Source: a virus
Virus record (IMG/VR): IMGVR_UViG_3300037485_001282
Location: 79,702 to 143,701 of that record
DNA: 64,000 bases
Strand: one strand, 5' to 3'
Shown here: piece after piece, positions 28,741 through 59,062 of the stretch
How the letters are laid out: each line of letters starts with the position of its first letter
Position numbering within the stretch: the stretch's first letter is position 1
Notes under the pieces: model-generated
What the model was told of the DNA's origin: nothing
Databases searched by the model: none
The model's input: only the letters and a program-made list of their open reading frames with translations
Translations under genes and position numbers: made by a program

Positions 28741-28748
28741 TATAAATA
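28741..28748 (+). promoter_or_regulatory. T4-type late promoter
   Basis: Exact TATAAATA 32 bases before the gp23 ATG at 28781. Confidence 0.88.
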
Positions 28749-30310: not shown

Positions 30311-30329
30311 TTGGCTTAAGGAAAATTTT

Positions 30330-32123
30330 ATGCCAAGACCAAGATCTTCTTTTGATGACTTTAAATACCTTTATGAAGGAACTAAATACGAGGTAGATAC
30401 TTCAAAGCATTTTACCGTAAACACGTCAATCACAATAACTTGTGATAAAGGACATAAGTTCCGTTCAAGCGTGACTAAGGTAAAATCTTTGGGGAAAGAT
30501 CCAAAAATATGCCCCCATTGCATAAATGAATCTAAAAACAATGAAGTAAGAATATCTTTCACCGATATTAGTGATTTTTTTAAAGAAACTAACTGGGAAG
30601 TAGTCTATGAAAACGATTTTTATAGTAAATGGGAAGGACGAATTACTCTAAAATGCAAAAACGATGGGAACATTCAGTATATAAAATCTATAAAATATTG
30701 GAACGATAATCGCACAATACCATTATGCGATAGATGCAAGGAAATAAACACCGAAAAGAAGTTAGGTGTTTTCTTAGAGAAACTAGAAGAAAAAGTAAAT
30801 ATCACTCATGAAAAAACAGAACTAAAGCCAGAATACACTGGGATTGATACTCTACCACCACAATTAAAGGAAAGATACTTAGCACAAACTCAGTGGAGAT
30901 TAATAGAATATATTAATACTAAAACTTTTGCTATTTTTCAATGCATCAAATGTGGCTTTATTAAAAAAGCACTACCATATAACTGTTTATTGGCGGTTAG
31001 AGATAGATGCGAGAATTGTATGAGAATTGAAATGAGAGATAATGTTTACAATAAAATGTATGAGCAGTGTAAAGAATCATTAATTTTACCAATAGAAAAC
31101 ACACCATATGTTGCACCGAGAGACTATATTCGTTTTAAATGTGAAAAATGCAATCACGAATTCGAACAGAAATGGTATAACATAAACAGCGAATGTGGTA
31201 GAAACAAATTAAGTTGTCCTAACTGTTTTAAGAACATAAAGCGAAAAGAGGAAACTGAATTTGCTGATTATATTAGAGAATTGGTAGGGGCAGATAAAGT
31301 AACCCAAGATACTAAAAAAATAATTGCTCCATATGAACTAGATGTATATATCGAAGAACTTAAATTAGCATTTGAATACTGTGGAAACATATGGCACTCA
31401 GAATTGTATAGAGATGATCCAGATGTTCATAAAAAGAAACATGAACTTTGTGAAACGAATGGAATTAGATTAATAACTTTATTTGCCGATGAATGGAAAG
31501 ATTCTAGGAACATCTGTGAGTCCAGAATTAAAAATCTGCTAGGTCTTCTAACAAATAAAATCCCAGCAAGAAAATGTGAAGTTAAAGAGGTAGATACTTC
31601 AGTAGCTTTAAGTTTCTGTGATGAAAATCACCTCCAAGGAAAAGGTCAGTGCCGAGAAGCATATGGTCTTTACTTTGAAGGTTCTTTAGTTTCTATAATG
31701 ACCTTTTCAGTTCCTTCTATTTCCAAATCTGGTTCAACTAGGAACTATGATTGGGAACTTAATAGGTTCTGTTCGAAACTAGATACCGTAGTTATTGGTG
31801 GTGCTAATAGGTTAATAGAAGCCTTTAAGGAAAAACACCAAGGACAGACTATAGTAACTTTTTGTGACTTAAGATGGGGAAACGGGAAAGTCTATGAGAA
31901 CATGGGATTTACTTTTGATTACAAGACAGATCCTAATTATTACTACGTAGGCGCTATAACTAACTGGAAGAGGAAGCACCGATTTAACTTTACTAGAGAG
32001 CGCCTTAGAGAGATCTTTAAAGTAACTGACGAGACTAAGACCGAGCGAATGATAGCAGAGGAAAATGAACTTTTTAGGATCTACGATTGTGGACATAATA
32101 GATACTCGTTGAAAATAAGTTAA
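30330..32123 (+). CDS. Free-standing homing endonuclease (EDxHD/Vsr-like) after the capsid gene
   Basis: This 597-residue protein is related to the endonuclease at 117-1766. Several CxxC zinc modules come first (CPHC, CDRC, CIKCGF, CENC, CEKCNHEF, CPNC). Then follow ELDVYIEELKLAFEYCGN and IWHSE, the Vsr-like core, and GIRLITLFADEW. The C-terminal domain (about 430-597, GLYFEGSLVSIMTF ... CDLRWGNGKVYENMGF) is also shared. It lies between the gp23 terminator and the neck genes with its own sigma70 promoter, not in a broken gene. I chose the ATG at 30330 (AAGGAAAA upstream); a longer frame from 30210 would cross terminator and promoter. Confidence 0.82.
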   Translation: MPRPRSSFDDFKYLYEGTKYEVDTSKHFTVNTSITITCDKGHKFRSSVTKVKSLGKDPKICPHCINESKNNEVRISFTDISDFFKETNWEVVYENDFYSKWEGRITLKCKNDGNIQYIKSIKYWNDNRTIPLCDRCKEINTEKKLGVFLEKLEEKVNITHEKTELKPEYTGIDTLPPQLKERYLAQTQWRLIEYINTKTFAIFQCIKCGFIKKALPYNCLLAVRDRCENCMRIEMRDNVYNKMYEQCKESLILPIENTPYVAPRDYIRFKCEKCNHEFEQKWYNINSECGRNKLSCPNCFKNIKRKEETEFADYIRELVGADKVTQDTKKIIAPYELDVYIEELKLAFEYCGNIWHSELYRDDPDVHKKKHELCETNGIRLITLFADEWKDSRNICESRIKNLLGLLTNKIPARKCEVKEVDTSVALSFCDENHLQGKGQCREAYGLYFEGSLVSIMTFSVPSISKSGSTRNYDWELNRFCSKLDTVVIGGANRLIEAFKEKHQGQTIVTFCDLRWGNGKVYENMGFTFDYKTDPNYYYVGAITNWKRKHRFNFTRERLREIFKVTDETKTERMIAEENELFRIYDCGHNRYSLKIS

Positions 32124-41788: not shown

Positions 41789-42451
41789 ATGCCATTCCCA
41801 TCAGACGTAGAATCAATGAATCTTTATAGTTTCCGTCAAACTATTAGAGATGTTAGTCGTCCTTATCTGTTTATGGTCGAGATGCCAAATATTGATACTA
41901 GTGCCGCTAAGTTAACCGCTTTTGCGAGAACTACATCATTACCAAAGTATTCTCTTTCTACAATTGATATTCCGTTTCAATCACAGAAACTTAAATTGGC
42001 TGGTCCAGCTAACATTGAAGGAACTTGGCAGGTTGAGTTTCTCTGTGACGAACTACATACTTTACGAAATAAATTCCTTAGTTGGGCTCAGATTGGGTTC
42101 GATATTCAAAGACTTCAAGCTGGTGCTCCGTCTTCTTATAAGTATGATTTAGCTAAAGTTGTTCAATTAGCTCGTAATGGCGCTAGAATTGCACAATATC
42201 AGTTCGTTGGCCTATTCCCAACTTCAGTTGGTGAAATTCAATTATCACACGAAGAACAAGGTTACGCTAAGTTCCCAGTAGAATTCGCGTATGATTACTA
42301 TACTATCGATCAAGCAAATTCATTTGACGTTAACTCAAGTGCATTCCAAATTGGCGCTACTGGTATTGGTGCTACTACTGACTTGGCTGCATTGGCTGGC
42401 GCAACTAATATCAATGAAGTAACTGGTACTATTGGTAACAACGGGGGCTGA
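41789..42451 (+). CDS. 19: Tail tube protein gp19, first copy
   Basis: This 220-residue protein matches T4 gp19 (163), the tube inside the sheath. FRQTIRDVSRPYLFMVEMPN, TTSLPKYSLSTIDIPFQSQK, then IEGTWQVEFLCDELHTLRNK and VEFAYDYYTID are typical. It is longer than T4 gp19 by a Gly/Ala/Thr-rich tail. AGGAGAAAAC precedes the start. A strong terminator separates it from a second copy at 42524. It is likely the main tube protein because it follows the sheath directly and is followed by the terminator. Confidence 0.93.
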   Translation: MPFPSDVESMNLYSFRQTIRDVSRPYLFMVEMPNIDTSAAKLTAFARTTSLPKYSLSTIDIPFQSQKLKLAGPANIEGTWQVEFLCDELHTLRNKFLSWAQIGFDIQRLQAGAPSSYKYDLAKVVQLARNGARIAQYQFVGLFPTSVGEIQLSHEEQGYAKFPVEFAYDYYTIDQANSFDVNSSAFQIGATGIGATTDLAALAGATNINEVTGTIGNNGG

Positions 42452-42523: not shown

Positions 42524-43234
42524 ATGCCATTCCCATCTAATAATCTTTACAATAAAGATAACGACATGAATCTTCTTGATTTCAGGAAGATAATTAATGA
42601 CGTTTCTAGATCTTATTTGTTTATGTTGGAGATGCCGAACATCGATACCGATGCGAGAAAATTAACATCATTCGCTAGATCAACGACAATGCCTGGATAT
42701 AATATCGAAGAAACTTCTTTTAAATTTCAAACAGCTACAATAAAACTAGGCTATGGGGCTACTTTTAATGATTGGACCGTTGAATTTTTAAACGATCAAG
42801 TTTATTCTTTAAGAAGTAAATTTTTGGCTTGGATGTCGCAAATATATGATCCAGTTAGAGTTATGTCAATGTCAGCCAATTCCTATAAGTATGATGGTGT
42901 TAAAATTCATCAATTATCTAGAACTGGGAAAAAAGTTCAAACATGTCAATTTGTTGGGCTATTTCCTAAATCAATATCAGATATTAACTTAAAACACGAT
43001 GCGACTGAATTGCAGACATTTACGGTTAATTTCGCTTATGATTATTTTACTATTGATTCTGGAAACCCTCTGGAAGCGACAATAGACCTCGCTACAGGAA
43101 ATACGGACGGAAATGGTATAGGATTGAGTGGGATCGTGGGAAGAGCGCCAGCAGCGGGAACTCCGCAAAATAACGTAGCTGGAGTATTTGATGTATATGG
43201 TGGAATGAAGAAAGCAAAATCCGCATTAATATAA
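42524..43234 (+). CDS. Tail tube protein gp19 paralogue, second copy
   Basis: This 236-residue protein is clearly related to the preceding tube protein. Both share DFRKIINDVSRSYLFMLEMP versus SFRQTIRDVSRPYLFMVEMP, TTMPGYNIEETSFKFQTATI, FNDWTVEFLNDQVYSLRSKF, and FAYDYFTID. It differs in a longer N-terminus and C-terminal tail. It lies behind a strong terminator with only AAGGAAAA as ribosome site, so it should be made at a lower level. It might form a special ring (tube tip or initiator) rather than the tube body; that is inference. TnpB follows. Confidence 0.85.
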   Translation: MPFPSNNLYNKDNDMNLLDFRKIINDVSRSYLFMLEMPNIDTDARKLTSFARSTTMPGYNIEETSFKFQTATIKLGYGATFNDWTVEFLNDQVYSLRSKFLAWMSQIYDPVRVMSMSANSYKYDGVKIHQLSRTGKKVQTCQFVGLFPKSISDINLKHDATELQTFTVNFAYDYFTIDSGNPLEATIDLATGNTDGNGIGLSGIVGRAPAAGTPQNNVAGVFDVYGGMKKAKSALI

Positions 43235-43285: not shown

Positions 43286-44416
43286 ATGAACCTGACCATT
43301 AAATGTAAACTATTAGCTAACCAAGAACAACATCAGCAATTGCGGGACGTAATGATAGCATTTAATAATGCTTGTAACTGGGTTAGTGAAGTTTGTTTTA
43401 ATAAAAAGATTTTTAATAAGTTCGGACTACATAAAGAAGTTTATTACGAAACAAGACAGCGTTTTAATCTTTCTAGTCAGATGGTTATTCGAGTAATAGG
43501 CAAAGTAGCGGATAGTTATAAAGATTTTAAAAAGCGAGAAACCCAGCACGAATTTAAAGATTTAGGGGCAATCGATTACGACGAAAGAAATTTCGGAGTC
43601 AAAAAAGATGGAATTTCTATTTCTATCTTAGGTGGAAGAACAATAATGGATTATCGTTCAAGAAAACCTCTCTCAGAATACAAAATTTGTAGCCAGTGCA
43701 AACTATCCTATGATAAGCCAAAGAACAAGTTTTATGTTTTGTTGTCGGTTGAAGAGATGGAACCAGTTCCAGATAAAGTTGAAAATTTTATTGGTGTTGA
43801 TATGGGAATTGTTAAGTTGGCAACTTGTTCTGATGGAGAAATTTTTACTGGTGAAGCAGTTGAGAATCATAGAGTTAAACTAACATTATTAAAGACGAAA
43901 TTGCAGAGTAAGGGAAGTAAGTCAGCGAAACGGCATTTAAAAAAGATTTCGAGAAAAGAAGGAAGGTTTAAGAGAGATGTAAATCATTGTATTAGCAAGA
44001 AGATAGTAAAGAAAGCAAAGGCACTTGGCGTCGGGGTAAAGATCGAAGATCTTTCTTTTGACAACAAAGAACCAGTTATGAAGTTTAACCAGAAACAGCG
44101 TGATAATAACGCTAAGATGGGTAAATGGGCTTTCGGTCAATTGACCAACTATCTTGGGTATAAGGGGAAAAGAGCAGGAGTTCCTGTTTTGTTTGTTAAT
44201 CCCGCTTATACTTCGCAAAAATGCAGCAAGTGTGGACATACTGAAGAAGATAACCGTCTGTCCCAATCTGAATTCTGTTGTATATCCTGTGGATACAAAG
44301 AAAACGCAGATATTAATGCTGCAATTAATATTTCTCGGGCTGCCGTCAACCAGCCTATTGTAGCCACTAGAAAAAGTGCGTTACAAGCCCCGCTATTAAT
44401 TGGTGTGGGTAGTTGA
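43286..44416 (+). CDS. tnpB: TnpB, RNA-guided nuclease of IS200/IS605 type
   Basis: This 376-residue protein is a full-length TnpB. The RuvC-like catalytic residues are present: Asp172 in IGVDMGIVKLA, Glu254 in VKIEDLSF and Asp342 in ENADINAAINI. A zinc ribbon lies between (Cys313, Cys316 and Cys332, Cys335). TnpB cuts DNA matching a guide encoded next to the right end of its element. All key residues are intact, so it is probably active. It sits alone among tail genes with its own promoter. The guide RNA is expected to come from the 3' end of the gene and run into 44418 onwards. Confidence 0.92.
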   Translation: MNLTIKCKLLANQEQHQQLRDVMIAFNNACNWVSEVCFNKKIFNKFGLHKEVYYETRQRFNLSSQMVIRVIGKVADSYKDFKKRETQHEFKDLGAIDYDERNFGVKKDGISISILGGRTIMDYRSRKPLSEYKICSQCKLSYDKPKNKFYVLLSVEEMEPVPDKVENFIGVDMGIVKLATCSDGEIFTGEAVENHRVKLTLLKTKLQSKGSKSAKRHLKKISRKEGRFKRDVNHCISKKIVKKAKALGVGVKIEDLSFDNKEPVMKFNQKQRDNNAKMGKWAFGQLTNYLGYKGKRAGVPVLFVNPAYTSQKCSKCGHTEEDNRLSQSEFCCISCGYKENADINAAINISRAAVNQPIVATRKSALQAPLLIGVGS

Positions 44417-53015: not shown

Positions 53016-53651
53016 ATGACCTGTAAAGTCATATACAACAATGAGTTAATACTGAACAACTCACACACTAATAACTATATTTTTGTGTTAGACAGAGTTC
53101 CTACTAGTTTCTTAATATCCAAGTTTTCTAAAGATGCTTTAATTAAGGTAGATGCTACATTAGGATCTTTGAGTAACTCGGATGTAATTAGAGAAGCTAA
53201 TCAGGATGTTCAAAATTTAGCTTTATTTACTCAGACAGTTAATTTACCTGAGATGGACTTAGGTTTCTCTGATATTCCTACTCAATTTGCTACTATTCAT
53301 GAAGCGACTGGATTGATTGACTTTGGGGAACTATCAACTACTTTTTTAAATGATGAAAATTGGTTTATCTATAAAATGTTAACTTATTGGTTACTAGCGG
53401 GGCATAATCCTGAGAGATACAATAAACGTAACTCGGTTCAGCATTGGAAGGACTTTTACGTAAATGCCTACCTAATAATCTTAAATAATAACCGTGAGAA
53501 AATAATGGAATTTAAATTTACCGATGTGCATCCTAAGACTATGGGATCTATTGAGTTAAAGGATTCCGAGGCATCTAGAATTATGCTTCCAGTAACGTGG
53601 AAATATACTGATTACGTTATTTCCGATGATCTAGTAATTACTCGGGTTTGA
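53016..53651 (+). CDS. Tail-tube-fold protein (third gp19-like protein)
   Basis: This 211-residue protein has the tube-fold pattern: LFTQTVNLPEMDLGFSDIPT (compare FARTTSLPKYSLSTIDIPFQ), then ELSTTFLNDENWFIYKMLTY (compare WQVEFLCDELHTLRNKF), then KFTDVHPKTMGSIELKD and LPVTWKYTDYVI (compare VEFAYDYYTI). It is thus a diverged relative of gp19 and could be the tube initiator (gp54 role), as it belongs to the baseplate operon. AAGGAACTAAA precedes the ATG. Confidence 0.65.
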   Translation: MTCKVIYNNELILNNSHTNNYIFVLDRVPTSFLISKFSKDALIKVDATLGSLSNSDVIREANQDVQNLALFTQTVNLPEMDLGFSDIPTQFATIHEATGLIDFGELSTTFLNDENWFIYKMLTYWLLAGHNPERYNKRNSVQHWKDFYVNAYLIILNNNREKIMEFKFTDVHPKTMGSIELKDSEASRIMLPVTWKYTDYVISDDLVITRV

Positions 53652-53675
53652 CTTTTTAATTTTAGTCACTATAAT
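53648..53675 (+). promoter_or_regulatory. Sigma70-type promoter for dUTPase
   Basis: TTGACT (53648-53653), 16-base spacer, TATAAT (53670-53675), 22 bases before the ATG at 53698. Confidence 0.75.
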
Positions 53676-53697: not shown

Positions 53698-54147
53698 ATG
53701 GACGAAAATCATGTTTACAATTTTGGCGTATTCTTGGATCATCCAGAAGCCAAAGTTCCCACTAAAGCAAACCCTTCCGACGCTGGATTTGATCTTTATA
53801 GTGTAGAAGATGCTATTATTGACCCAGGAGCTAGGAAACTAGTAGATACTGGAATTATCTTAGAGATGCCCAATGGTTGGGAAGCTCAGATTAGACCACG
53901 ATCAGGTCACGCAGGTAAATTAGGATTATCTATAGTAAATACACCAGGAACGTGTGATGCTTCTTACAGGGGTCTTATTAAAGTAATCCTATACAATACC
54001 TCAAAAGAAACCATTAATCTCCCTAAAGGCTCTAAAATCGCTCAGATGGTATTTCAAAAGGTTCCTTTAGTTTCTCTTAATTTACTTAAAGAGAAGCCAA
54101 CAAATGACTCTAGAGGAACTAAGGGTTTCGGTAGTAGCGGAATTTGA
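53698..54147 (+). CDS. dut: dUTPase
   Basis: This 149-residue protein is a trimeric dUTPase, which hydrolyses dUTP to dUMP and limits uracil in DNA. All five motifs are present: SDAGFDLYS (I), IRPRSGHAGK (II), NTPGTCDASYRG (III, with Cys where Ile is common), GSKIAQMVFQKV (IV) and RGTKGFGSSG (V). I chose the ATG at 53698 with AAAGGAAAC before it; the one at 53674 overlaps the -10 box. A sigma70-type promoter in front marks it as an early gene placed among late ones. Confidence 0.95.
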   Translation: MDENHVYNFGVFLDHPEAKVPTKANPSDAGFDLYSVEDAIIDPGARKLVDTGIILEMPNGWEAQIRPRSGHAGKLGLSIVNTPGTCDASYRGLIKVILYNTSKETINLPKGSKIAQMVFQKVPLVSLNLLKEKPTNDSRGTKGFGSSGI

Positions 54148-54157
54148 AGGAACTAAC

Positions 54158-54541
54158 ATGTCAGTAGCTTTTAAAGAAATAATTGAATTATCTAAAAAGG
54201 AACCAATAAGGGAATTTAATTATACTAATTCAGATACAAGAGAGTTATATACGGTTCTTTTGAGAACATCCAACGAAATGGTGAATTGGTTTAAATTTGA
54301 TGTGGGGGATTTTCTTTTAGCATCTAGTCAGGTTATTGGTTTACTAAGAACAATAGGTGCCTTTAATAATAAACCCAAAGAACTTCACTATGATTATTCT
54401 CGCAGATATAATCAGAGTTACTTCAGGGGTTGTCTTGGTAGATTCTCTGTTTTTGAGTTTGATGTAGAAGAAGGTGACTATGCTGTAATTGGTAACCAAA
54501 GTAAATATTTGTATATTAAAGTTAATAATTTAAAAAAGTAA
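54158..54541 (+). CDS. Small capsid-like protein: fragment paralogue of gp23
   Basis: This 127-residue protein matches residues about 304-386 of this phage's gp23. LYTVLLRTSNEM...GDFLLASSQVIGLL...GAF matches LYTVLLKASNEI...GNFVLASPAVVAAL...EAF, with 18 of 40 identical by eye. LGRFSVFEFDVEEGDYAVIG matches IGRFTVYRDQFARVDYAVVG. It has 29 leading residues of its own. It may be a remnant of the vertex paralogue gp24, a decoration or a regulatory piece. I chose the ATG at 54158 (AAGGAACTAAC upstream). A terminator follows. Confidence 0.8.
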   Translation: MSVAFKEIIELSKKEPIREFNYTNSDTRELYTVLLRTSNEMVNWFKFDVGDFLLASSQVIGLLRTIGAFNNKPKELHYDYSRRYNQSYFRGCLGRFSVFEFDVEEGDYAVIGNQSKYLYIKVNNLKK

Positions 54542-54569
54542 CTTTAAAGTTCCTTTTAGTTCCTTAAAG

Positions 54570-54600
54570 ATCCCCTGAGAGCAACTCTTAGGGGATTTTT
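54570..54600 (+). terminator. Rho-independent terminator
   Basis: ATCCCCTGAGAG and CTCTTAGGGGAT pair over 12 bases (one G-T) with a CAA loop, then TTTTT. Confidence 0.93.
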
Positions 54601-54606
54601 GTTTTC

Positions 54607-54614
54607 TATAAATA
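54607..54614 (+). promoter_or_regulatory. T4-type late promoter
   Basis: Exact TATAAATA 20 bases before the ATG at 54635, right after the terminator. Confidence 0.85.
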
Positions 54615-54634: not shown

Positions 54635-55510
54635 ATGAACTTGAAGGAACAGAAGCGACTAGAAGATACTTGGAAGGCACTTGAAGTTACATTATTGGAG
54701 AGACAGTCTTTAGAGACCAGAAGTAAGTTTGCCGATGATCAAATTGAATTACTGTCTGCGGAAATAATAGACGGTAACGTAACACTTTGTAATGGTCTTA
54801 ATGTAAACTTTGGTGGGTTCAAGAGTTTTACATTTACGGGAGTTAGAGTAAATATTGATATTGGGGAATATAAATTAAATTATTATATTGGAAATCTTTT
54901 TAAAGAATCTGGTGCTATTTTTGACAGGTATCCAGCATTTAAGCATGATATTGGAAACGATATAATAGTATTTTTAAGAATTGACGAGATTTCAAATACA
55001 GTGTTAGATTTGATGGAAAATCTATCTAATAGAAAAGTATTGAACTATAAATCAAATAGAAAGTTATTATCTGATACGGAATTTTCTCCTAGAGACTTTT
55101 TATTAGACATTAATGCTAATCAATGGAGATATATTGGTCATGAATTAGACCATGTATATCAGCATATAATTCAATCTGACGGAGACCCTAAAGATTCACT
55201 TAAGCAACAAGATTTACCGTGGAACGAGAGACACGAAGAACTTACAGCGGAATTAACATCTAGATTCTCGTATTTTAAAAAATTATTAAAGGTTGGACAT
55301 GATATTGATGAATTTTGGCCTAATACTAATAGTGGATATGAAGATATAATTATTAAATATTTTCCCAACTATTATGACACTAAAGGAGAAAATAGGAAAA
55401 AACTATTGAAAAGATTGTATCAATTAAGAGAACAACTAGTAAAAGTACAAAAGGTAATAAAAGATAGGAAAAATAAAGTTATTATAAATAAAGCAGGGAA
55501 AACTAAATGA
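54635..55510 (+). CDS. Putative zinc metalloprotease-like protein
   Basis: This 291-residue protein has YIGHELDHVYQH (167-177), an HExxH motif with His169, Glu170 and His173. A conserved-looking ERHEELTAEL (198-207) about 30 residues on could give the third ligand. This fits zincin metalloproteases, though the rest of the sequence is not recognised and catalysis is unproven. The C-terminus is a lysine-rich helix. I chose the ATG at 54635 (GAGGAACT upstream) because a frame from 54599 would start before the late promoter. It overlaps the next gene by four bases. Confidence 0.6.
   Translation: MNLKEQKRLEDTWKALEVTLLERQSLETRSKFADDQIELLSAEIIDGNVTLCNGLNVNFGGFKSFTFTGVRVNIDIGEYKLNYYIGNLFKESGAIFDRYPAFKHDIGNDIIVFLRIDEISNTVLDLMENLSNRKVLNYKSNRKLLSDTEFSPRDFLLDINANQWRYIGHELDHVYQHIIQSDGDPKDSLKQQDLPWNERHEELTAELTSRFSYFKKLLKVGHDIDEFWPNTNSGYEDIIIKYFPNYYDTKGENRKKLLKRLYQLREQLVKVQKVIKDRKNKVIINKAGKTK
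55493..55500 (+). promoter_or_regulatory. T4-type late promoter inside the preceding gene
   Basis: Exact TATAAATA within the last codons of the zincin-like gene, ending six bases before the ATG at 55507. Transcripts would be leaderless or nearly so. Confidence 0.6.
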
Positions 55511-56769
55511 CTGACCTAAATGAGTTTAGAGAAAAAATTAGAAAAATTTTTGATAGAACCCCCAAGAAAATTGAGGACAATATCGGAAGTAGTGGAAATG
55601 GTCAAATATTGTTTAATGAAGAGGAACCAGAAGAAGCTGCTCCAGAAATTCCACCACCTGATGAATCCGAAGATCAAGCGACCGATGCTGGATCTACAGA
55701 ACAACCAGAAAAACCAGAGCAACCAGAGCAGCCAGAAGAAGCGCCCCCAACAGACGCAACACAAAATCCTGCTCCAGCACCAGTTCCAACAATAAATCAG
55801 AATCAAAATGATGCTCAGAAACTTAAGCAAATGTTTTCTGACTCAGGTGATTTAGTATATGATTATAGTTTAACTAATGAATTTAATCAAAGACTGTTTA
55901 AATTTAAATTTACTTATTCTGGAATAGATATTAATCAACTAATGACATCTAATGATGAGAGAACTGTTGGAGCATTAAAATCAGAATTAGAAAATCGTCT
56001 TTCACCAGAACAAAGATTCTACTATATTAATAAATGGAAATCTTTACGAAAGAAGTATCCAGATATTGAAAAAAGGGAAAAAAATATCATCATTCACAAT
56101 ACAAATATAATGATGATGGTTAATGATGATTTTGGTGAAGAAATACCCTTACCTGAAGAGAAGAAAAAAGAAGCGTATGAAAAAATAGATAAACTATTAA
56201 TTCAAAAATTTGGTGATGAATGGTTAGACAATCAAGAAGCTTTGGATTTTTTAAAGAATATTAAGATTAACTTTTCTAACGATAAGCCAGTTAGAACCAA
56301 TCTATTATCTATTAGCATAATGGATCAGAAGGATAAAGTTACTAATTCAGATTTAGTTCCTTTTAATAAAATCTATATAGACATTCCAGTTTCTATAAGG
56401 AACTTTTTAAAATCTAACGAAACTAATGAGTTTTATAATAGTAGTTCAATATTTCAGAATCTAATATCCGACTTTAGAAACTATTCGAAAATATCTGGGA
56501 GTATGGATTCGGTTATTAAAGGAACACCAACTCAGGAACCAACGGAACAAGACCCTAACGCAACTGGAGATACTTCGGCTGATGGGGCTTCTGCTGGCAT
56601 GGGTGGAGGTATGAGTGGTGGGGGTGATGTTGGTGGATCAACTGATATTGGCGGGGATATGACTAATCCAGATGAAACTGATGTAGGAGACGAAACAGCG
56701 CCAACGGATACGGAAGAAGCCCCAGTCGATGACACCGAAGCAGCCCCAGAAACTTCAGAAGAAACCTGA
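55507..56769 (+). CDS. Acidic proline-rich late protein of unknown function
   Basis: This 420-residue protein is not recognised. Residues about 45-100 are a Pro/Glu linker with repeats (EQPEKPEQPEQPEE). The middle (110-345) looks like a folded domain with YDYSLTNEFNQRLFKFKFTY and helices. The C-terminal 75 residues are Gly, Asp, Glu and Thr rich (ADGASAGMGGGMSGGG), very acidic and probably disordered. Its ATG overlaps the previous gene (ATGA). A tail or virion role is suggested only by position and late promoters. Confidence 0.55.
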   Translation: MTDLNEFREKIRKIFDRTPKKIEDNIGSSGNGQILFNEEEPEEAAPEIPPPDESEDQATDAGSTEQPEKPEQPEQPEEAPPTDATQNPAPAPVPTINQNQNDAQKLKQMFSDSGDLVYDYSLTNEFNQRLFKFKFTYSGIDINQLMTSNDERTVGALKSELENRLSPEQRFYYINKWKSLRKKYPDIEKREKNIIIHNTNIMMMVNDDFGEEIPLPEEKKKEAYEKIDKLLIQKFGDEWLDNQEALDFLKNIKINFSNDKPVRTNLLSISIMDQKDKVTNSDLVPFNKIYIDIPVSIRNFLKSNETNEFYNSSSIFQNLISDFRNYSKISGSMDSVIKGTPTQEPTEQDPNATGDTSADGASAGMGGGMSGGGDVGGSTDIGGDMTNPDETDVGDETAPTDTEEAPVDDTEAAPETSEET

Positions 56770-57082: not shown

Positions 57083-59062
57083 ATGCCCTTATATCGAAAA
57101 CAAAAGCCAAAAGTATTTAAAGAAGAAGGAGAGATTGTAGGAAATAACAATGCTCCACTGGGGTATCGTAATCCAGTTTCTGAACGGTCAATCGCTTTTG
57201 TTAACGGCACCCCTTCACCAGATGATAATGTTTTTTTGTTATCGGCATTAGAATCAGTAATGGGTTCTACTAATATAGACGGAACGAATCTACCAGTTTT
57301 GAACACAGAAACAACAGTAGAGAATTACATAAAACCGATATTTTTAGGAAGTAATGGACAGCCCTCTGAAGAGTTTCTTTATACCAACCCAACCGCTAAT
57401 CTGAATTTGACAAAAAACGCAGATTGTGTTACTACTTTTATGTTTGCCAATATTCAAGCAAAAAAGTCAGAGAGAGGATTTAAAGAACAATTACAAAAAA
57501 CCGATCCGAATATACCAAACTCTGTTACTAATAAAACACCTTCAGCTACATCAGAACAAAAATATCAACTAATGTTTATAGAACAAGGAGATGAGTTTAA
57601 TTCTAGGATAAGAATAAATTCATTCGATATTATTATTGATAATTTAGGTAAAGGGATTAATACAATTTTATCTTCTCCGTTGCAGTTAGATAATTGGTAT
57701 GATGGAAGATGGGTAGATTATAATATAGGAAATAATGTAACTATTGGCGCTACTAATGATCCAGTAAAGGAAAGAAAAGTTGGAGATAGATTAAATTGGT
57801 CATTTGGAAGTGTGTTTTTAGCAAAAACCTTTGGATCTATAACAAGAAACACAGAAGAAACCTTTAGGGAATTAAAATATACATTTGATAATGGAAAAAT
57901 AACATTAAGCGATTGGGATTTTTCAGTTGAAATTTCGCCTACTGAATTTTCAAGTAGATATGGTGAAAAAGTAAGTATAGTATATGGCAAAAAAGAAGAG
58001 ACGGAAATATTATCCAAAGACCAAATTTCAAGAGGAGTAGTTGGTCGTAAAATTTTTACGTTCCTAATGAATTCTCTTGAAGAAGGGGAGAATATTAGAA
58101 TAGAGGAAGCACATGGTGGAATTAAAATCGGCGTTGATTTTAATTATAATAAGATAACAAACTGGTATTCCCCATCTTCATCTAGTTCAGCAGATAATAT
58201 AATAAATCTTTCCCCAGGAAATACGTTGCATTATGATTTTGGAGATGGATTAGCGAATATTAGATTTAATGGAAGAAACGGTCAAGTTTCGTATGTTTCT
58301 ATTGGTGGAGACACAATACCAGTATCAACTGTAAACGGATTTTTTGTTTGGAACTACGGTACAATTAACGCATATACTTTTAAAATATTTAGAGAATGCC
58401 ATAACTTTAAATCATCATTGGGATATACATATCAGATATGTTTCGTTGGTTATCCTAGAATTATATTTTCGTTAGATATTTTATCTAGAAGTTCAAGTTC
58501 ATCATCATCGGAATCTTATTCTTCTAGTAGTTCGTTGTCTTCGGATTCGTCTGTAGCCGATGAATCATCGTCATCGTCCTTTGATAAAAATCATTCTTCA
58601 ACATCAAGTTCATCTTTGAGCTTATTGAGCTTATTAAGTGTATCATCTTTGTCTTCAAAATCATCACAATCAAGATCAAGTGATTCTTCGTCTTCATCTA
58701 ATTCTTCAAGTAGTTCATCATCGAAATCCTCCGTGTCTCTGTCATCTAATTCTTCAAGCAGCACGTCTTCTGTATCTGATGTATCTTCTAGTTCAAGATC
58801 CAACAATGACACTTCTTCACAGAGTGAGTCTTCGCTTTCAGATAATTCTAGTTCTTCTAGTAGCTCTAGTTCTTCAAATTCATCTTCGTCATCTTCCGAA
58901 TCGAATAGTTCAAATAGTTCTAGTTCATCTAGTTCCTCCAGTTCTTCTAATTCTTCTAGTTCAAGCTCTTCGAGTAGCAATTCTTCGAGTAGTTCAAGCT
59001 CCACGTCTTCTAATTCATCTAGTTCATCTCATTCTATTTCGTCTTCCTCCCAATCACCATAA
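57083..59062 (+). CDS. Tail adhesin/fibre protein ending in a long poly-serine tail
   Basis: This 659-residue protein has a beta-rich body (residues 1-465) and then a 190-residue Ser-rich tail (from about 468) with Ser runs broken by Asp, Asn and Glu. The serine codons are mixed (TCT, TCA, TCG, AGT, AGC), so the DNA is not a simple repeat. Poly-Ser stretches are normally linkers between domains; here the protein simply ends (TAA at 59060). The next gene starts in the same frame three bases later without a ribosome site, so the two look like one adhesin split by one stop. The start at 57083 has no clear ribosome site. Confidence 0.7.
   Translation: MPLYRKQKPKVFKEEGEIVGNNNAPLGYRNPVSERSIAFVNGTPSPDDNVFLLSALESVMGSTNIDGTNLPVLNTETTVENYIKPIFLGSNGQPSEEFLYTNPTANLNLTKNADCVTTFMFANIQAKKSERGFKEQLQKTDPNIPNSVTNKTPSATSEQKYQLMFIEQGDEFNSRIRINSFDIIIDNLGKGINTILSSPLQLDNWYDGRWVDYNIGNNVTIGATNDPVKERKVGDRLNWSFGSVFLAKTFGSITRNTEETFRELKYTFDNGKITLSDWDFSVEISPTEFSSRYGEKVSIVYGKKEETEILSKDQISRGVVGRKIFTFLMNSLEEGENIRIEEAHGGIKIGVDFNYNKITNWYSPSSSSSADNIINLSPGNTLHYDFGDGLANIRFNGRNGQVSYVSIGGDTIPVSTVNGFFVWNYGTINAYTFKIFRECHNFKSSLGYTYQICFVGYPRIIFSLDILSRSSSSSSSESYSSSSSLSSDSSVADESSSSSFDKNHSSTSSSSLSLLSLLSVSSLSSKSSQSRSSDSSSSSNSSSSSSSKSSVSLSSNSSSSTSSVSDVSSSSRSNNDTSSQSESSLSDNSSSSSSSSSSNSSSSSSESNSSNSSSSSSSSSSSNSSSSSSSSSNSSSSSSSTSSNSSSSSHSISSSSQSP

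Follow-up and report, generated by a model that had tools for sequence, protein, structure and literature searches.

The gene considered here, P0001, lies in a 64,000-nucleotide stretch of DNA (the window) that forms part of a 143,701-base virus record (G000), and it encodes a protein related to one part of gp23, the major capsid protein (MCP) of the same phage (Table 1). The start codon, boundaries, and 127-residue length assigned to it in an earlier note, made from the letters of the DNA alone, are correct, and the terminator that the note placed behind the gene is present. P0001 directly follows a dUTPase gene, with a gap of 10 bases between the two, and the terminator is in turn followed by a candidate late promoter and by a gene whose 291-residue product carries an HEXXH motif (HELDH, residues 169-173). 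No family match was found for this product, and its gene is absent from the relatives searched; in the G000 record, just two ORFs of at least 100 aa contain HEXXH, and a weak tblastn match to the protein in a 462-kb phage is without the motif. Just upstream of the dUTPase gene lies the third of three tail-tube-like paralogues (PHROG_45; 53016-53651, the others at 41789-42451 and 42524-43234), and further downstream a gene at 57083-59062 encodes a 659-aa protein whose C-terminal end is a long serine-rich, low-complexity tract.

Table 1. Features of the P0001 locus, the gp23 gene, and other small ORFs carrying gp23 pieces. Positions are those of the window unless a contig is named; equivalent local coordinates are in brackets.
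Feature	Position	Strand	Remarks
Sigma70-type promoter TTGACT-16-TATAAT	53648..53675	+	11/12 consensus match; just before dUTPase
dUTPase gene	53698..54147	+	Likely start ATG 53698, preceded by AAAGGAAA
Ribosome-binding-site-like GAAGGAAC	54146..54153	+	Just 5' of the P0001 ATG; AAGGAAC-type sequence also before neighbouring genes
P0001, gp23 A-domain fragment gene	54158..54541	+	127 aa; ATG start at 54158
Intrinsic terminator closing the dUTPase-P0001 unit	54565..54601	+	
Putative late promoter of T4 type, TATAAATA, ahead of the next gene	54607..54614	+	After the P0001 terminator
Next gene 3' of P0001	54635..55510	+	291 aa; GHELDHVYQH (HEXXH); metallopeptidase-like by motif only
Putative late-type promoter TATAAATA	28741..28748	+	32 bases upstream of gp23
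gp23 (MCP), full-length relative of P0001	28781..30193	+	470 aa
Second G000 gp23 piece	G000:5148-5576 (L075:5148-5576)	-	142 aa; ETQEIKATRRMLDVKWSIEATQDL vs gp23 EAQEIVAKTRKLAARWTHEAQQDL; outside the window
G020 gp23 piece	G020:198632-198997 (within L106)		121 aa; profile positions 76-147, segment around GVQPM
G020 gp23 piece	G020:189744-190103 (L098:3745-4104)		119 aa; C-terminal strands
G053 gp23 piece	G053:77715-77960 (L194:5716-5961)		81 aa; EIVGIQPMDDPIGQAF, gp23 segment around GVQPM

The TTGACT..TATAAT promoter ahead of the dUTPase gene is one of six near-identical sites that the 143.7-kb record contains, compared with zero to three in shuffled sequence, and strong sigma70-type sites precede several genes in G000, including an inserted gene for a TnpB-family RNA-guided endonuclease among the tail genes (43286-44416; NF040570, E 1.7e-58). 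A probable endonuclease-like gene with zinc-ribbon stretches, located directly 3' of gp23 (30327-32123) and related to 117-1766 on the minus strand, also has its own sigma70-type promoter. The gp23 gene and the HEXXH gene each stand behind a late-type TATAAATA. The bare motif is found 20 times in the window versus 13.8 expected, with no clear enrichment over chance; its interpretation as a promoter is based on where it lies. Taken together, the type of promoter, the dUTPase partner, and a terminator followed by a late-type promoter suggest that dUTPase and P0001 form an early or middle unit and that P0001 would be expressed before the late genes. No terminator was found between the upstream tail gene and this unit, so late tail-gene transcripts could also read into it.

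The homology of P0001 to gp23 far exceeds chance. BLASTP aligns residues 8-112 with residues 268-384 of the window's own MCP (E 3e-9, 34/119 identical), and identity between the two proteins is about 30% overall. The earlier note had described the resemblance as starting at residue 30, with about 45% identity in the first 40 matched residues; the homology itself stands and the identity is close to our own count (about 43% over residues 28-67, by eye), but the match begins earlier, at residue 8 (IIELSK). The profile searches against the gp23 family that the note had proposed as a check agree with the relationship. PHROG_138 ("major head protein") is the sole PHROG profile to match P0001 (E 3.4e-5), Pfam Gp23 (PF07068) matches at E 3.4e-4 with 20.6 bits, below its curated cut-off of 24.4 bits, and a profile of own-lineage MCPs, built mostly from those of the phage group to which G000 belongs, scores 30.7 bits (29.6 bits in a second build), where the top score among 20,000 shuffles of P0001 was 12.6 bits. 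The G000 record holds one full-length gp23; no second full-length relative was found in it, and a search there for gp24 found none. T4 Inh is an inhibitor of the gp21 head protease and a minor head protein that regulates capsid maturation. It was considered as a model for P0001 but rejected as a gp23 relative, scoring -1.8 bits on the MCP profile, and the PHROG search gave no match between P0001 and the Inh family.

The alignment and the predicted secondary structure of P0001 delimit one unit, which starts in the last part of the spine helix and extends across the axial (A) domain. In the predicted model of the MCP (mean pLDDT 54.9, with the C-terminal half better), the elements are the spine helix at 244-275, a strand at 277-281, a helix at 294-319, a strand at 326-329, a helix at 331-338, and strands at 359-365, 368-373, and 380-384, followed by long strands that were assigned to the P domain. 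The P0001 model (mean pLDDT 76.7, pTM 0.74) has helix 5-12, strand 18-22, helix 27-45, strand 52-55, helix 57-64, and strands 88-93, 96-100, 107-112, and 117-124, and their order is that of the MCP model from the end of helix 244-275 to strand 380-384. The best PDB matches found for it by Foldseek are T4 gp24 and gp23 (E from 3.2e-4), with gp24 the best; the alignment used for folding P0001 included 24 MCP segments, however, so this resemblance agrees with the homology but is not independent of the MCP alignment. In terms of the HK97 fold, we take P0001 to be an A domain plus a stub of the spine helix. The N-arm, E-loop, and P domain are absent, and the whole HK97 fold expected of the gp23 family is not present. 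In addition, the (A/G)RWxxEKF motif that is invariant in T4-type MCPs is deleted and the MCP-invariant TRRGxGN is replaced by FKFDVGD; gp24 is also without both motifs. BFVD entry A0A8D9CCE8, a protein of 130 aa from an uncultured marine phage, has a P0001-like predicted fold along its whole length (E 1.4e-3, TM 0.56/0.55) and may be another stand-alone A-domain-like protein.

P0001 is a real, long-diverged gene encoding a stand-alone gp23 A domain. Codon statistics give its frame +0.21 bits per codon and are negative for the other five frames, and when neutral drift of the MCP segment to 33% identity was simulated, the frame stayed open in only 0.35% of simulations. The GC content is 30%, similar to fast-changing neighbours, compared with 47% for gp23. 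The earlier description of the gene as a fragment paralogue and not a simple deletion is thus borne out, as the gene is intact, has a ribosome-binding site and a terminator within a promoter-led unit, and yields a model like T4 gp24 and gp23.

The dUTPase gene is kept at the same spot in G004 and G020. In G004, what comes directly after it is a terminator, then TATAAATA and a homologue of the gene at 55507-56769, so that P0001 and the HEXXH gene are both missing. P0001 is absent from the syntenic locus of the nearest relative, and neither gene is present at the remaining syntenic loci examined. Patterns derived from P0001 found no relative in IMG/VR and GTDB in scans that depended on an exact 8-residue match and would overlook divergent copies. 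A tblastn search of 50,697 phage records gave only weak matches to gp24/gp23 (E 0.3 and up), and neighbouring proteins used as single queries gave no matches. In pairwise comparison, P0001 scores best against MCPs from its own group (up to 50.8 bits, versus 34.7 for RB49 gp24 and 26.6 for T4 gp23), which favours duplication within its own lineage. In trees, which had no power to date the duplication, P0001 sits on a very long branch; one tree joins it with gp24 (93/89, long branches flagged), and placement with the MCPs of its own group is not rejected (p-AU 0.22). On the sequence scores, we favour an origin from the MCP of its own phage group, while leaving room for a gp24-like origin.

P0001 is not the only small gene with a piece of gp23. 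A survey of all ORFs of at least 40 aa in seven large contigs with an MCP profile recovered the seven MCPs, P0001, and four other small ORFs with E values of roughly 2e-4 or lower (9e-5 in G000, 3e-6 and 1.5e-5 in G020, and 2e-4 in G053), versus E 0.03 for the best reversed-sequence decoy. The second G000 piece, missed by an all-against-all phmmer comparison and detected by the profile scan, shares its strand with another TTGACT..TATAAT promoter situated about 5.4 kb upstream of it, and the interval contains no TATAAATA. Two of the pieces, one each in G020 and G053, are N-terminal and cover the segment that presumably holds Gol in T4. Both G020 ORFs stand inside a long array of small ORFs, in which (L098:2066-7913) many ORFs start with a common motif, for example MKxNRxTY, and several are paralogous. 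In G011, a 144-aa ORF downstream of gp23 (L068:527-961) gives a weak alignment that spans the entire A domain (10.4 bits); this score is borderline, with one in 10,000 shuffles above it, and the ORF is a possible second A-domain gene.

Seventeen other core-protein profiles, taken through the same procedure in the seven contigs, identified no dispersed small ORF, and an MCP profile rebuilt by the shallower procedure used for these 17 proteins still found four small ORFs, P0001 included. In T4, RB49, and one cyanophage, the MCP profile found only gp23 and, where present, gp24. Small genes with gp23 pieces occur in three of the seven large contigs, a small sample in which contigs may be partial. 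There is an apparent bias of such pieces to the MCP, and the occurrence of small gp23 pieces elsewhere, with none from the 17 other core proteins, suggests capsid mimics rather than building blocks. The pieces other than P0001 are short, at 17-90 aa, and could be remnants.

Our preferred, though tentative, explanation is that P0001 is a non-virion mimic of gp23 made before the late genes and that it most plausibly serves as a decoy for defences that sense the MCP. Transcription together with dUTPase ahead of the late genes, as the promoter type suggests, would place a soluble capsid-like domain in the cell before gp23 is synthesized. The inter-capsomer contacts of T4 involve the P domain and the N-arm (PMC9958956), so a free A domain should not form a shell alone, and with the shell-building parts missing, P0001 would most likely act off the virion. 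There it would occupy a partner otherwise bound by the real gp23, the most plausible being an immune sensor like Lit or CapRel, encoded by the host or a prophage, that is triggered by the MCP and that P0001 might titrate without triggering. CapRel(SJ46) is triggered directly by a phage MCP, binding mainly its P domain with an additional A-domain loop contact (PMC9712102), a setting in which a mimic would pay, and in the case of Lit, an HEXXH protease, activation comes from a segment of gp23 (PMC3014915). The same precedents also count against a decoy, as the A domain alone is not what the known MCP sensors contact: for CapRel the main contact is the P domain, and for Lit it is the Gol segment. 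The sensor for P0001 is only postulated; moreover, at about 30% identity to its own MCP, P0001 need not have retained a surface epitope. A wider form of this explanation would have the T4-related group carry sets of small accessory genes, each with a different segment of the phage's own MCP (the A domain, the Gol-containing N-terminal segment, a P-domain helix, or the C-terminal strands), that act before capsid synthesis as decoys and blind capsid-sensing defences, which we regard as rather unlikely.

An action on capsid assembly, which the note had raised as poisoning, is unlikely in our view but deserves serious weight. The free A domain could insert into or cap gp23 capsomers and delay, reshape, or block the assembly of the phage's own heads or of those that a satellite or a competing phage would build. 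In T4, capsomers are held together by contacts of the A domain, and the gp23 mutations that bypass gp24 fall in the A-domain interface (PMC9958956), while SaPIbov5 Ccm provides a precedent for a phage capsid-protein homologue with a role beyond normal head building, as it redirects capsid shape (PMC8569155). Ccm, however, is described as a capsid-protein homologue and not as a single domain, and it belongs to a satellite, whereas P0001 is one domain encoded in the phage itself. Such a modulator would also need to spare the phage's own late assembly, and loops and motifs conserved in MCPs are altered in P0001. An unlikely, although by no means negligible, alternative is that P0001 is what is left of a duplicated gp23/gp24-like gene, with little or no function. 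Its absence from the syntenic loci of relatives, the varying place and segment of the other gp23 pieces, and the inability of the trees to place it would fit a remnant, but a frame of 127 codons still open at about 30% identity is a rare outcome of simulated neutral drift, the gene has expression signals and a base composition matching local genes, and among 18 core proteins, dispersed pieces were found for the MCP only.

The earlier note had raised vertex filling or decoration as roles for P0001, and such a minor virion component, in effect a reduced gp24, now appears improbable. T4 gp24 (PF07068 family) is, like P0001, a gp23 paralogue without the RW..E and TRRG motifs; it is the best PDB fold match and, on long branches, the partner of P0001 in one tree, and no other gp24 was found in the G000 record. 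It is, however, full-length at 427 aa, has the complete HK97 fold, and is encoded beside gene 23, whereas P0001 is a single domain about 24 kb from gene 23 in what appears to be an early-type dUTPase unit and not a late-promoter unit. The MCP-invariant motifs are lost, and the P domain, N-arm, and E-loop, the carriers of inter-capsomer contacts in T4 (PMC9958956), are absent. The relatives searched, several of them fragmentary records, have neither P0001 nor gp24, so vertices there would be built without P0001. Finally, a phage-borne pair like Gol and Lit, with P0001 as either the activator or the cleavage substrate of the neighbouring HEXXH protein, is very improbable, for although a gp23 piece acts alone in host immunity through an HEXXH protease in that system (PMC3014915), the two genes are missing together in G004, and HEXXH is scarce in G000, P0001 is the A domain and not the Gol region (part of the first quarter of full-length gp23), the genes lie in different transcription units, and Lit homology of the neighbour was rejected, as Peptidase_U49 (PF10463) gave no match at E up to 10.

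What is new here is the natural occurrence, in an early-type unit, of a capsid paralogue consisting of a single domain, together with an apparent MCP-only bias of small-ORF pieces, and the latter can be tested in more phages. Even if P0001 proves to be an assembly modulator, a natural single-domain HK97-fold capsid paralogue would be a useful tool for the study of capsid assembly. MCPs count among the triggers known for bacterial immunity to phages, and the escape described is by capsid point mutations. If P0001 does act as a decoy against sensors of the MCP, a free capsid domain produced ahead of the capsid itself would constitute a different route of escape and would offer a ready reagent for finding capsid sensors.
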